Assembly: GCF_039830145.1 (NCBI RefSeq)
Contig: NZ_CP156082.1
Location: 1-64,000, forward strand
Direction of reading: 5' to 3'
Origin: Croceibacterium sp. TMG7-5b_MA50
Lineage (GTDB): Bacteria; Pseudomonadota; Alphaproteobacteria; Sphingomonadales; Sphingomonadaceae
Length of the DNA stretch: 64,000 nucleotides
Part shown: positions 1,509 through 47,912 of the stretch, in pieces
Position numbering within the stretch: the first letter of the stretch is position 1
Layout: each line of letters opens with the position of its first letter
Made by a program: the position numbers and the translations under genes
The notes under the pieces: generated by a model
Told to the model about the DNA's origin: nothing
Databases searched by the model: none
What the model saw: the letters and a program-made list of their open reading frames with translations, nothing else

Positions 1509-2258
1509 ATGCTGGAACCCGATCGCCTGCAGCGCTTCGCGCGCCATATCGTGCTGCCTGAGCTGGGCGGCGTGGGTCAGCAGCGGCTGGCCGATGCGCG
1601 CGTGGTGCTGATCGGGCTGGGCGGAATCGGCAGCCCGGCGCTGCAATACCTCGCCGGTGCCGGGATCGGGCACCTGCTGCTGGTGGATGACGACCGCGTC
1701 GATCCCACCAACCTGCAACGCCAGACCATCTATACCGAGCGGGATGTCGGCCATTTGAAGGTGGTCGGGGCCAAGCGCTGGACCACCAACTTCGACGCGG
1801 CGCTCGACATCGAGCTGAGTGACGAGCGGATCAGCCGTGACAATGCCGGGGCGCTGGTAGCCGGTGCCGATCTGGTGGTGGACGGGTGCGACAACTTCGC
1901 CACCCGGCTGGCCGTGTCGGACGCCTGCGTTGCGGCCGGCGTGCCGCTGCTGAGTGCGGCCGTCGGGCGGTTCCAGGGGCAGGTGGCGGCCTTCAAAGGC
2001 GCCCCCTGCTACCGCTGCTTCGTGGGCGATGCCTTCGATGCGGAGGATTGCGACACCTGCGCCGCCGACGGCATGCTGGGGGCGATGGCCGGGTGGGTCG
2101 GCACCTTCGCCGCATTGCAGGCGGTGCGTATCCTGACGGGCACGATGGGCGACCCGCAATGGGGCCGGCTGCACCTGCTGGATGGGCTGGCGCCGGGGAT
2201 GCGCAGCATCGCCATCGCCGCCGATCCGGGCTGCTCCGCCTGCGGCGCTGCGCGCTGA
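1509..2258 (+). CDS. HesA/MoeB/ThiF-family adenylyltransferase
   Basis: E1-like enzyme of the MoeB/ThiF/HesA family. These enzymes adenylate the C-terminal glycine of small sulfur carriers such as MoaD or ThiS. The 249-residue protein shows the nucleotide-binding GLGGIGS (36-42), the DDDRVDPTNLQRQ region (60-72), and two zinc-type Cys pairs, C167/C170 and C242/C245. The segment GMLGAMAGWVGT follows C184, the position of the MoeB semi-conserved cysteine. It starts 23 bases after dnaA. The substrate carrier cannot be told from the sequence. MoeB is plausible because the window also carries modABC, but ThiF-like function is not excluded. Confidence 0.88.
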   Translation: MLEPDRLQRFARHIVLPELGGVGQQRLADARVVLIGLGGIGSPALQYLAGAGIGHLLLVDDDRVDPTNLQRQTIYTERDVGHLKVVGAKRWTTNFDAALDIELSDERISRDNAGALVAGADLVVDGCDNFATRLAVSDACVAAGVPLLSAAVGRFQGQVAAFKGAPCYRCFVGDAFDAEDCDTCAADGMLGAMAGWVGTFAALQAVRILTGTMGDPQWGRLHLLDGLAPGMRSIAIAADPGCSACGAAR

Positions 2259-2280
2259 AAGTTGACACTAACTTGACACC
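2259..2280 (+). repeat. 22-bp tandem TTGACAC element, copy 1
   Basis: Begins directly after the stop of the MoeB/ThiF-like gene and holds two TTGACAC units four bases apart. The same 22 bases with a single mismatch occur in the opposite orientation at 47243-47264. The 120 bases that follow, up to the end of cobB, show no convincing gene and only a short GC hairpin. The role is unknown; a regulator operator or a promoter is possible because TTGACA matches a -35 consensus. Confidence 0.6.
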
Positions 2281-2400
2281 TGAATCGGCCCGCCGGCCGA
2301 CGCGTTAATGTGCCCGTGAACCGGCGAAACGTGAGATGCGGTGGGACAAGGCATGGCATGGGCCTGCCATGACAGAGGTGAGCGATGTAGGACAGCGGCG

Positions 2401-3102
2401 CTATCGTCGCAGCACCCCAGCCACCCAGTCCGGCACCAGCACGCTGGCAGGACCGAGGCGCGTCTCGTCGAACAGGCGCGAGCCGAGGCTGCGATCGAGG
2501 TTCAGCTCCAGCGTCGCCGCGCCGGCGTCCCGCGCGGCCTGCACGAAGCCGGCGGCGGGGTAGACCGCGCCCGACGTGCCGATGGAGACGAACAGGTCCG
2601 CATCGGCCAGCGCGGCGAAGATGCGGTCCATTTCATACGGCATCTCCCCAAACCAGACGATATCGGGCCGGAGGGCCGGGGACCCGCAGGCCGGGCACGG
2701 CGGATCGCCCGACAGCGATGCCGTCCAGCGGTGCCGCGTGTTGCAGGCGGTGCACCACGCCGACAGCGCCTCCCCATGCATGTGCAGCACGCGCGCGGCG
2801 CCTGCCCGTTCGTGCAGATCGTCGATGTTCTGGGTCACGATCAGCAGTTCGCCAGTCCACTCCCGGTCCAGCCGCGCCAGCGCCGCGTGCGCGGGGTTCG
2901 GTTCCGCCGCCAGGACCGCCGCGCGGCGCAGGTCGTAGAAGCGCTGCACCAGCGCCGGGTCGCGGGCGAAGGCCTCGGGCGTCGCCACATCCTCCACCCG
3001 GTGATCTTCCCACAGCCCATCCTCCGCCCGGAAGGTGGCGAGGCCGGACTCGGCGCTGATCCCGGCGCCGGTCAGGATCACGATGTTGCGAATGGCTGTC
3101 AT
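2401..3102 (-). CDS. cobB: NAD-dependent protein deacylase, sirtuin (CobB-type)
   Basis: Sirtuin that removes acyl groups from lysines using NAD. The 233-residue form starting MTAIRNIVILTGAG has the GAGIS NAD motif (12-16), TQNIDDLH (90-97), catalytic H109, and a zinc site from C117, C120, C136 and C139. Y56 and R59 in FYDLRR match the Tyr/Arg pair that lets class III sirtuins (E. coli CobB, SIRT5) act on succinyl- and malonyl-lysine. The start at 3102 fits the family best; an ATG at 3111 and a TTG at 3138 are in frame upstream. It is divergent from dapB with almost no space between them. Confidence 0.93.
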   Translation of the reverse strand: MTAIRNIVILTGAGISAESGLATFRAEDGLWEDHRVEDVATPEAFARDPALVQRFYDLRRAAVLAAEPNPAHAALARLDREWTGELLIVTQNIDDLHERAGAARVLHMHGEALSAWCTACNTRHRWTASLSGDPPCPACGSPALRPDIVWFGEMPYEMDRIFAALADADLFVSIGTSGAVYPAAGFVQAARDAGAATLELNLDRSLGSRLFDETRLGPASVLVPDWVAGVLRR

Positions 3103-23983: not shown

Positions 23984-25302
23984 GCACCGATGCCGAACAG
24001 ATGGCGGCCGAAGCCGCGCCGATCGGGCATGGGAAGCTGCAATGGCGCATCCTGATCGGCTTCGTCGCCGGGTTGGCGGCGGGGCTTGCCGCCTACACGC
24101 TGACGCCGGGGGCGGACTGGATCGGCACGGTCGTCACCTACATCACCGGGCCGATCGGGCAGGTGTTCCTGCGGCTGCTGTTCATGCTGGTGATCCCGCT
24201 GCTGTTCAGCGCGCTGGTGATCGGCGTGGCGGAGATGGGGGAAATCCGCTCCCTGAAGCGCATTGGTCTGCGCACGCTGGCCTACACGGTCGTGGTCTCG
24301 GCCATTTCCGTCGCGCTGGCGCTGCTGCTGGTCAACGTGCTGCGCCCCGGTGACGGCGTCGACCCGGTCGCCGCGCGCGAATTGCTGGCGCAGGGCGGGC
24401 AGGGCGCCGCCAGCATCGTCGCCGCCAGTTCGGAAACACAGCCAGGCGTGGCGCAGCTGATCGCCATCGTGCCCAGCAACATCGTCGCCGCCATGGCCGA
24501 CAACGACATCTTGGCGGTGATGTTCTTCGCGCTGGTCTTCGGCATCGGCATGCTGCTGGTGCAGACGCGCCGCACCGCCGCGCTGAAGGACGGGATCGAG
24601 GGCTTGTTCGAGATTGCGATGCGGCTGATCGGCATCGTCATCCAGTTGGCGCCGATCGCCATCTTCTGCTTCATGTTCAACCTGTCCGCCCAGTTCGGGT
24701 GGGACCTGCTTTTCAAGCTAGCCGCCTACGTCGGTGTGGTGGTGCTGGCGCTGGCGCTGCAAATGTTCGGCGTGTTTTCCGCCATCCTGGCGTTCGTGGC
24801 AAAGAAGAGTCCGATCGCCTTCTTCCGCGAGACGCGGGAGGCCAGCATCATGGCCTTTTCCACGGCCAGTTCCAACGCGACGCTGCCCACCGCGCTGCGG
24901 ATCGCCGATACGGAGCTGAAGCTGCCCGGCCGCGTCGCCCGCTTCGTGCTGACGATCGGGGCCACCGCCAACCAGAACGGCACGGCCATGTTCGAAGGCG
25001 TGACGGTGCTGTTCCTGGCACAGTTCTTCGGCGTGGACCTGTCGCTGGGCGATCAGTTGTTCGTGATGCTGGTGGCGATCCTGGCCGGCATCGGCACTGC
25101 CGGCGTGCCGGGCGGATCGCTGCCGGTGGTGGCGCTGATCCTGGCGAGCGTAGGCGTGCCGCCGGAGGGGATCGGCCTGATCCTGGGCGTCGACCGTTTC
25201 CTCGACATGTGCCGCACGGCGCTGAACGTCGTGGGCGATCTCGTCGCGGCGCAGACCATCTCCTCCCTGTCGGAGAAGGATGCGGTCGCGACCGCCGACT
25301 AG
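23980..25302 (+). CDS. Dicarboxylate/amino acid:cation symporter (GltP-like)
   Basis: Sodium- or proton-coupled transporter of 440 residues. It has the canonical DAACS motifs: AFSTASSNATLP (serine-rich hairpin), the NQNGTAMFEGVTVLF helix, GTAGVPGGSLPVV, and DRFLDMCRTALNVVGD with the substrate-binding aspartate and arginine. These fit an acidic amino acid or dicarboxylate substrate. It is coupled to dapE (ATGA) and ends four bases inside the convergent mutM. Confidence 0.94.
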   Translation: MSTDAEQMAAEAAPIGHGKLQWRILIGFVAGLAAGLAAYTLTPGADWIGTVVTYITGPIGQVFLRLLFMLVIPLLFSALVIGVAEMGEIRSLKRIGLRTLAYTVVVSAISVALALLLVNVLRPGDGVDPVAARELLAQGGQGAASIVAASSETQPGVAQLIAIVPSNIVAAMADNDILAVMFFALVFGIGMLLVQTRRTAALKDGIEGLFEIAMRLIGIVIQLAPIAIFCFMFNLSAQFGWDLLFKLAAYVGVVVLALALQMFGVFSAILAFVAKKSPIAFFRETREASIMAFSTASSNATLPTALRIADTELKLPGRVARFVLTIGATANQNGTAMFEGVTVLFLAQFFGVDLSLGDQLFVMLVAILAGIGTAGVPGGSLPVVALILASVGVPPEGIGLILGVDRFLDMCRTALNVVGDLVAAQTISSLSEKDAVATAD

Positions 25303-46023: not shown

Positions 46024-47097
46024 TCAGCCCACCTGCGCGCGGTGCAGCAGCTTATGGTCGGCCAGCACCAGCGCCATCATCGCCTCCACCACCGGCACCC
46101 CGCGAATGCCGACGCAGGGATCGTGGCGGCCCTTGGTGGCAAGCTGCGTCGCGGTGCCGTCGCGCGTCACGGTGTCCTGCGGGATCAGGATGGAACTGGT
46201 CGGCTTGAACGCGATCCGCACCACCACCGGCTGCCCGGTGGCGATGCCGCCGGCAATGCCACCCGCATGGTTGGCGGTGAATTCCGGCCCGCCGCCATCG
46301 GTGCCCGGGCGCATCGGATCGGCATTGTCCTCCCCCCGCAGGGCGGCGGCGGCCATGCCTTCGCCGATCTCCACGCCCTTCACCGCATTGATGCCCATCA
46401 TCGCGGCGGCAAGATCGGCGTCGAGCTTGGCATAAAGCGGCGCACCCCAGCCGGCGGGCACGCCGGTGGCGACGCATTCGACCAGTGCGCCCAGGCTCGA
46501 CCCGTCCTTGCGCGCCGCATCGACCAGCCCCTCCCACCGTGCGGCAGCGACCGGGTCGGGGCAGAAGAACGGATTGCGCCCGATCTCGGCAGCATCGAAA
46601 TTGGCGGGGTCGATCGCGTCGCCACCGATCGCGCTGACCCAGGCGGTGATCGTCACTTCAGGGATGACCAGCCGCGCTACCGCGCCCGCCGCCACCCGCG
46701 CTGCCGTCTCCCGCGCGCTCGACCGCCCGCCGCCGCGATAGTCGCGGAAGCCGTACTTGGCGTCGTAGGCGTAATCGGCGTGGCCGGGGCGATAGGCTTT
46801 CGCCACCTCGCCATAATCCTTGGACCGCTGGTCCGTGTTCTCGATCATCAGGCTGATCGGCGTGCCCGTAGTTCGCCCCTCGAAGGTGCCGGACAGGATG
46901 CGCACCTCGTCCGCCTCCCGCCGCTGCGTGGTGAAGCGGCTGGTGCCGGGCTTCCTTGCATCCAGGAAGGGCTGGATCGCGCCTTCGTCCAGCGCCAGCC
47001 CCGGCGGGCACCCGTCCACCACCGCGCCCAGTGCCGGCCCGTGGCTTTCCCCCCAGGTGGTGAAGCGAAGGACGCGCCCGAATGTGTTCCAGCTCAT
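46024..47097 (-). CDS. aroC: Chorismate synthase
   Basis: FMN-dependent lyase making chorismate from EPSP, the last step of the shikimate pathway. 357 residues from [20 protein letters not shown]. Landmarks are the [14 protein letters not shown] flavin region, [35 protein letters not shown] and [19 protein letters not shown]. Upstream frame to 47298 is shadow and runs across the TTGACAC element. pheA near 63 kb uses a downstream product of the same pathway. Confidence 0.97.
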
Positions 47098-47242
47098 GCG
47101 GGGCAGGCTATTGCGGCAAGCTGGCGGGCCTGTCCACTTTCCTACGCCCGGCGCATCTGGCAGGGACGGCCCATGACCGATCACGGCCTCTTCCCCGCAC
47201 CCTCGACCTGTCGCCGCGCCGGTGGCCGCGGCAGCCGTGGGA

Positions 47243-47264
47243 GGTGTCAACTTAGTGTCAACTT
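47243..47264 (-). repeat. 22-bp tandem TTGACAC element, copy 2
   Basis: Reverse-strand copy of the element at 2259-2280, 21 of 22 bases identical, in the gap between divergent aroC and ruvA. It points toward aroC and lies about 146 bases before its start. The 212-base gap (47098-47309) holds no gene that I can support. Confidence 0.6.
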
Positions 47265-47309
47265 CCGCGGATTGGACGACACCGTGCCCACCTTGCACCG
47301 GGCCGGCCG

Positions 47310-47912
47310 ATGATCGCCCGCCTTTCCGGCCGGCTGGCGGAAACGGGCGTCGACTGGGCGATCATCGATGTCAGCGGCGTCGGCTACATGGTCCATTGTT
47401 CCAGCCGCACGCTGGCCGCGCTCGGCAATGTGGGGGAGGGGTGCACGATCCACACCGACCTGCAGGTGAGCGAGACGGACATGCGCCTGCTCGGCTTCGC
47501 CAAGGGGGAGGAGCGGGACTGGTTCCGGCTGCTGACCCATGTGCAGGGGGTGGGATCGAAGGTGGCGCTGGCGATCCTCTCCGCCCTCGCTCCGGCCGAG
47601 CTGCGCGATGCATGCGCCGCGGGTGACGCGGCGACGGTGGCGCGGGCGAACGGCGTGGGGCCGAAGCTGGCGGCGCGCATCGTCAACGAGTTGAAGGACC
47701 GGGCCGGCGCCATGCCCGGCGGCGGCGGAGTGGCCAGCGTCGCCGCTGCGGCTCCCGGCAGCGCCAGCGGCGACGCGGTCAGCGCGTTGCAGAACCTTGG
47801 CTTCAAACCCGCGGTCGCGGCTGGCGCCGTGGCGCGGGCGCAGGACGAACTGGGCGAGGGTGCCGACCTCAACACGCTGGTGCGCGTGGCGCTGAAGCTG
47901 GCGTCGGGGTGA
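47310..47912 (+). CDS. ruvA: Holliday junction branch migration protein RuvA
   Basis: Binds four-way DNA junctions and loads RuvB, 200 residues. It starts [13 protein letters not shown], with the acidic-pin region [22 protein letters not shown] and helix-hairpin-helix segments [11 protein letters not shown] and [16 protein letters not shown]. The C-terminal domain III ([13 protein letters not shown]) binds RuvB. No ruvC precedes it, although ruvCAB is the common order. Confidence 0.96.

Follow-up and report, generated by a model that had tools for sequence, protein, structure and literature searches.

A two-ended repeat module dispersed in a Croceibacterium genome and its predicted pairing with a solitary terminase small subunit-like protein

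The locus and its two copies of the element

The window, that is, the entire analyzed stretch of 64,000 nucleotides at the start of contig NZ_CP156082.1 from Croceibacterium sp. TMG7-5b_MA50 (genome G000; 3.24 Mb), contains two copies of a short element: AAGTTGACACTAACTTGACACC at 2259-2280 on the plus strand and AAGTTGACACTAAGTTGACACC at 47243-47264 on the minus strand. A first-pass annotation had described these as lying on opposite strands and differing by one mismatch, which is indeed the case. Copy 1 has a ThiF-family gene (1509-2258) and a Sir2 gene as its neighbors, and its first base lies immediately 3' of the ThiF stop codon (2256-2258). Here the core of the element, AAGTTGACACTAACTTGACACCT (2259-2281, plus strand), is a direct repeat with an 11-base period. 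The same annotation had seen two TTGACAC units with four bases between them; the tandem arrangement stands, but a direct repeat of 11 bases (AAGTTGACACT, AAGTTGACACC) describes the units better.

The element also extends beyond the 22 bases originally delineated, as a second conserved box of the form TGTAGGACAG starts at position 2386. In copy 1 this box reads TGTAGGACAGCG (2386-2397, plus strand; C class, see below), and the whole module lies within an interval of 164 bases (2257-2420, plus strand). Copy 2 occupies 47137-47267 on the minus strand, between the divergent genes for chorismate synthase (start at 47097, minus strand) and ruvA (start at 47310, plus strand); its core is the above AAGTTGACACTAAGTTGACACC and its box is CGTAGGAAAG on the minus strand (CTTTCCTACG on the plus strand; 47137-47146), of the A class.

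A two-ended module across the genome

The recurrence had been judged a very unlikely product of chance, and counting the motif genome-wide bears this out: the exact 18-base pattern TTGACAC-N4-TTGACAC occurs 28 times in G000 (13 forward and 15 reverse) as against none on either strand for its backward control, and a 21-mer allowing up to three mismatches recovers 41 copies (17 and 24 on the two strands; backward control 0). The element is one end of a repeat of roughly 130-150 bases with about 41 dispersed copies, comprising a core AAGTTKACACTAAGTTKACACC, a variable middle and the box [TCA]GTAGGA[AC]A. The box is found within 230 nucleotides downstream of the core in 34 of 40 copies; L033 was omitted from this count and from that of flank pairing since it overlaps L032, and the six copies lacking a box (L039, L040, L041, L048, L062 and L067) were left out of the module statistics.

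The two ends and the middle differ sharply in conservation. The mean identity of the core across all 41 copies is 0.97, with the identical 23-mer AAGTTGACACTAAGTTGACACCT in 26 of them and a single G-to-T change in one of the repeats in 10 of the remaining 15. The boxes fall into two classes: 1) the C class, of the TGTAGGACAG type, with 18 copies, 12 of which have a core-to-box distance of 126-129 bases; 2) the A class, of the TGTAGGAAAG type, with 16 copies and a distance of 95-136 bases, barring one exception at 182. Among 13 C-class copies the far part of the middle has a mean identity of just 0.34 (0.31 when shuffled), and the 45 bases leading up to the box have 0.51. Nevertheless, 17 of 561 pairs of middles match at an E-value of 1e-4, indicating that at least subsets of the modules descend from common copies.

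A flank hairpin, GCGCTG...CAGCGC, which looked convincing by eye, was rejected because pairing within copies was no better than that between copies (p = 0.31 and 0.92). A conserved RNA fold was not supported either: RNAalifold returned only small hairpins near the ends or none, and the column-shuffle z-scores for the fold are invalid because invariant columns dominate the alignment. By eye, the loci compared with sister species share no terminal inverted repeats and display no evident duplication of the target, the flanks of the empty sites there having diverged.

Of the 41 cores, 22 lie within the first 1.02 Mb of the 3.04 Mb of C1. Cores with the T variant number 2 of 22 in this region and 11 of 19 elsewhere, the boundary having been picked post hoc; regional homogenization of the G000 cores is possible. 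G000 also contains a module in another dialect (L199, C1:1190338), CGAAGTTGACACAATTGACACTGTCC, with a 9-base period, resembling some in G001 and G002.

Position relative to genes

Examination of the gene contexts showed that 23 of the 41 cores lie between -7 and 40 bases past a stop codon on the same strand, the ThiF stop of copy 1 included. Sites labeled convergent number 19 of 41, versus 11 of the 49 pairs of neighboring genes across the window (p = 0.015). The gene calls used for the stop-codon and orientation counts, and the 11/49 baseline, come from a crude codon-usage caller that missed the ThiF gene beside copy 1.

Of the functions that had been proposed for the core, a tandem binding site is the best reading. 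Another, a promoter family, is unsupported at the core given that no -10 position is conserved after TTGACA across the 28 exact copies, that the cores tend to lie behind stop codons, and that other genera use cores with other letters (CCTGACACA, AAAAGTCAC or GAAGGTTAT). A promoter-like signal may lie at the other end of the module, that of the box.

Presence and absence in relatives

The earlier annotation had named a lack of further copies and of conservation as counting against the element; further copies do exist, and conservation in relatives proved to be split between the element and the module. The 22-mer itself, allowing up to two mismatches, is found in none of 58 relatives, four of which belong to the same genus, but at two of the nine orthologous loci compared there is a module with a different core. 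Across the family, which spans more than 100 genera, a 22-mer match was recovered in six of 397 genomes including G000 (five of the 396 others): G130 has 14 copies, and G143, G135, G184 and G333 have one or two each.

For the comparison of loci we used stretches of the sister genomes G001 (300 kb) and G002 (400 kb), in which both flanks could be matched, in one sister or in both, for nine of the 41 loci. At seven of these (L030, L049, L050, L051, L052, L055 and L060) the sister has a gap of 0-77 bases containing neither core nor box. The interval of copy 1 measures 164 bases in G000 versus 10 in G001 and, with slightly different edges, 175 in G000 versus 21 in G002. GTAGGA is also absent from the corresponding Sir2-locus gaps of G003, G004, G008 and G010. 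At the remaining two loci, L029 (window copy 2, beside ruvA) and L054, the sister has a longer module combining another core with the same kind of box.

The G002 module at the ruvA locus displays GTCRC seven times at a spacing of exactly 21 bases, and in its module at L054 GTCRC recurs mostly at 21-22 bases; the G001 module at L054 is without such an array. These GTCRC-array modules lie at about 24656-24992 and at 91589-91986 of G002:C2, and the 21-base step corresponds to two helical turns.

Further afield, the exact 22-mer occurs in a Burkholderiales metagenome-assembled genome (L208:4603-4624, minus strand) and in a viral contig (L209:2227-2248), in both cases with no box within 400 nucleotides; the latter contains further GTTTACAC-like repeats. 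A search of viral contigs gave 13 pattern matches, none of which was confirmed.

A solitary terminase small subunit-like gene

One copy of the core, L048, begins 23 bases past the stop codon of an intact gene on the minus strand (C1:1733616-1734569), in the opposite orientation to it. The encoded protein of 317 residues matches PHROG 4044 (terminase small subunit, TerS) with an E-value of 6.8e-13, as do two relatives (8.9e-26 and 1.1e-21; three of the three proteins given). The G000 protein has no match in Pfam or NCBIfam, and the search of solved structures gave no significant match (best E-value 0.028). A tblastn search with the G036 relative recovered 39 phage records, and among the 20 listed four are annotated as terminase small subunits. 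Eight TerS-like relatives align over a helix-turn-helix (HTH) and the conserved block following it, the remainder being variable. Such relatives were found in all 12 genomes searched (61 matches).

The neighbors of the G000 gene include, by Pfam, SURF1, a histidine kinase, a response regulator, an MFS transporter, thiC and mipA; no phage gene was recognized among the nine neighboring proteins at this one locus, three of which were without a Pfam match. Likewise, no plasmid copies were recovered with the G130 protein as query, no defense families were found for two TerS-like proteins, and no transposase family was matched by the TerS-like proteins given.

Upstream of the G000 gene lies TTTCCTACT, which is one base off the box, and L048 is among the six copies without a box downstream. 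At two further loci, pairs of tandem cores lie in what is left of shortened TerS-like genes from another subfamily, the second, whose products start with MSNRRN: L032/L033 (C1:260974 and 261030) and L039/L040 (C1:586978 and 587069). Thus, the core is present at three TerS-like loci of G000.

Related modules as lineage-specific dialects

Searching 30 genomes with the box TGTAGGAMAGCG revealed an excess over its backward control in several genomes: 24 versus 1 in G000 (where 19 of the 24 belong to the core-bearing modules), 18 versus 1 in G014, 15 versus 1 in G010, 9 versus 0 in G036 and 7 versus 0 in G017. It is not clearly enriched in the sisters G001 (7 versus 5) and G002 (5 versus 3). We fetched 16 of the 18 box loci of G014, five of nine from G036 and four of seven from G017; four G010 and two G014 box loci were omitted by eye from the sequence logos. 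The G010 core CTGACACACCTGACACAC is exact in nine of 15 box loci and present with few changes in two more, the G036 core AAAAGTCACAAAAGTCAC is found in four of the five fetched loci, and the G014 loci contain pairs of GAAGTTGAC or GAAGGTCCC. The four fetched loci of G017 show no clear tandem core. Searching with a degenerate G000 core yielded 15 matches in G130 and 11 in G103, with any match at all in 11 of 149 genomes including G000. Repeats of this kind are found in related bacteria as lineage-specific dialects.

The middles of several modules from other genera (L156 and L157 from G010, L161 and L163 from G036, and L205, L206, L275 and L277) share TCAAAGAGC or GAAAGAGC, the reverse complement of which resembles the boxA of rRNA antitermination.

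Association of gene and core

We considered 50 distinct TerS-like genes from the fetched loci (61 genome matches being listed in all). The reversed box TCCTACA occurs within 150 nucleotides upstream of 17 of the 50 and downstream of none. Conversely, a tandem repeat with a 9- or 11-base period occurs within 110 nucleotides downstream of 11 of the 50 and upstream of one; random 100-base tiles contain such repeats in 30 of 640, 170 of 3000 and 232 of 4000 cases. By these tests 39 of the 50 genes have no tandem repeat behind them and 33 no box. Nine of the 11 downstream repeats are clear cores by eye, namely those of G000, G130, G103 (two), G036, G009, G143 and G010 (two).

The adjacency furnishes predictions, in that a core read behind a gene should recur elsewhere in the same genome. 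The G009 core, read behind its gene and then searched for in 12 genomes, gave five matches, all in G009; three overlap one another and represent the gene's own four-unit array, and the two others are dispersed, both with a box. In the same kind of test a second G103 core gave nine matches, all in G103, and all eight copies away from the gene have GTAGGA[AC]A 106-130 bases further on. In the reverse direction, the dispersed G010 core, first met via its box, was then found 41 nucleotides behind a TerS-like gene. The prediction failed for G143, whose core is present only at its gene, with no dispersed copy at up to three mismatches. In G000, G130, G103 (twice), G036, G009 and G010 the core next to the gene matches the dispersed ones exactly or almost exactly. 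The similarity of proteins and that of cores, compared over nine pairs, are not significantly correlated (Mantel r = 0.31, p = 0.11).

Interpretation

Taken on sequence evidence, these observations make it fairly probable that the core is the binding site of the solo TerS-like HTH protein, carried in spreading two-ended modules, with each lineage having its own protein-core pair. The module would consist of a tandem core (two direct repeats of 9 or 11 bases), a variable spacer and the box TGTAGGA[AC]AG, with the core being read by a small HTH protein that is homologous to phage TerS and encoded by a solitary gene. TerS-like genes can bear both ends themselves, with CTKTCCTACA, the reverse complement of the box, 5' of the start and the core just past the stop. 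The short modules would then be gene-less forms that retain both ends and have colonized new sites, many of them past a stop codon. Each such pair would constitute a dialect, the uniformity of the core being maintained through selection by its protein. We infer that the protein binds the core, that the modules move or are copied by some machinery, and that they bring some benefit. Counting against this explanation, the middles are mostly unrelated, unlike those of a recently copied element, and no recombinase was recognized.

The most serious alternative, though still an unlikely one, is a host regulon, with the TerS-like protein as a domesticated regulator and with the core serving it as an operator or as an RNA polymerase roadblock at gene ends, so that the sites persist by helping the host and not through the spread of a module. 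It would sit well with near-invariant cores next to decayed spacers, with the convergent excess (19/41 versus 11/49 window pairs, p = 0.015, on crude gene calls) and with the two loci that retain a module in sister species. Yet seven of the nine compared loci differ by the entire two-ended module and not by an operator alone, this reading explains neither the far-end box nor the tie of that box to the upstream regions of TerS-like genes, and the flanking genes, judged from their ends, share no function that we recognize.

An improbable further reading has the sites functioning in packaging in a pac-like manner, with the TerS-like protein marking host DNA for the large terminase of a phage or gene transfer agent (GTA) and the modules being spread by capsid transfer. 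This would account for the homology to terminase small subunits; on the other hand, no phage gene was recognized among the nine neighbors of the G000 gene (three without a Pfam match), and the GTA small terminase that has been described appears to be without the HTH and binds DNA non-specifically (PMC6854486).

Similarly improbable is a family of small RNAs, for which the box would be a promoter with a TA-rich -10 element about 22 bases on, roughly 100 bases being transcribed towards the core, which would act at the level of RNA or as a terminator. A TA does recur 21-23 bases after the start of the box in G010 (6/11 at 21), G014 (8/14 at 22) and the C class of G000 (5/18 at 23), at 22 in 5/12 other modules of 11-base dialects, and, for the box ahead of TerS-like genes, at 22 in 8/17 and at 24 in 5/17, but no TA offset reached the reporting threshold in the A class of G000 (16 copies) or the second dialect of G103 (8). 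The box with a TA 21-24 bases on has the look of a promoter common to some sets, though not to all. As for the RNA itself, no conserved fold was supported, flank pairing did not exceed that of shuffled sequences (p = 0.31 and 0.92), and Rfam gave no match at the gathering threshold in the window and two sub-threshold matches in five loci, both outside modules.

Finally, a system of REP doublets with a REP-associated Y1 transposase (REPIN/RAYT) has a negligible likelihood: the repeats are short, dispersed, extragenic and lineage-specific with a cognate gene, have GTAG within the box, and coexist with a Y1_Tnp gene in four of 12 genomes (G103, G036, G143 and G009), but Y1_Tnp (PF01797) gave no match in G000, with its 41 copies, or in G001, G002, G010, G014, G017, G130 and G005, which rules the system out in G000 at the sensitivity of that search. 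The core, moreover, repeats directly and is not palindromic.

Returning to the pairing of a solo TerS-like protein with its core, we tentatively propose that a phage packaging recognizer now acts as the specificity factor in a system that is either selfish or of service to the host, in which a solo TerS-like gene co-diverges with its dozens of cognate tandem-repeat modules as lineage-specific dialects, two pairs can coexist (as in G103), and the modules propagate without encoding a recombinase, a combination that would be distinct from RAYT/REPIN, IS/MITE and phage pac. Among the papers listed for the open-licence literature we found no description of such repeats or of their pairing with a solo terminase, and one may exist elsewhere. 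If correct, the proposal would give solo TerS-like genes a testable role, namely that of encoding a protein that reads the core behind its own gene, and would link phage packaging proteins to a genome-wide repeat system. It would also supply natural HTH-to-site pairs for decoding recognition and raise the question of how modules spread with no recognized transposase.

Comparison with known systems

Phage TerS proteins mostly combine an N-terminal HTH, an oligomerization region and a TerL-binding end, and recognize the packaging site (PMC6854486); the SPP1 pac comprises direct repeats and overlaps the start of the TerS gene, and the isolated SF6 HTH domain binds DNA with little sequence preference (PMC4737164). 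The present system resembles these (PHROG 4044; SPP1/SF6 pac) in its family of HTH proteins, whose HTH and adjoining conserved region are homologous to TerS, and in having direct repeats near a small terminase gene. It differs in that the gene is solitary and chromosomal, with no recognized phage or packaging genes beside it at the one locus inspected, and in that the core is found past the end of the gene and has as many as 41 copies across the host genome.

REPIN/RAYT systems also display many short extragenic copies of lineage-specific sequence along with a cognate chromosomal gene; here, however, the protein is TerS-like and not a Y1 transposase, the two ends differ from one another, and the core consists of direct repeats with no palindromic inverted pairs. 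Similarly, MITEs are gene-less copies sharing both ends with a gene-bearing form, and the insertion-like empty sites in the sisters are reminiscent of them, but the gene-bearing form here encodes a TerS-like protein with no recognized transposase, the middles are very divergent, and the ends are not inverted repeats of each other, with flank complementarity not above that of shuffled sequences. The direct repeats of the Pho box and of OmpR-family sites, TGTCA-N6-TGTCA with an 11-base period, fit the G000 core on its other strand; in contrast, the present system has other dialects with a 9-base period and other letters, and clear cores behind TerS-like genes.
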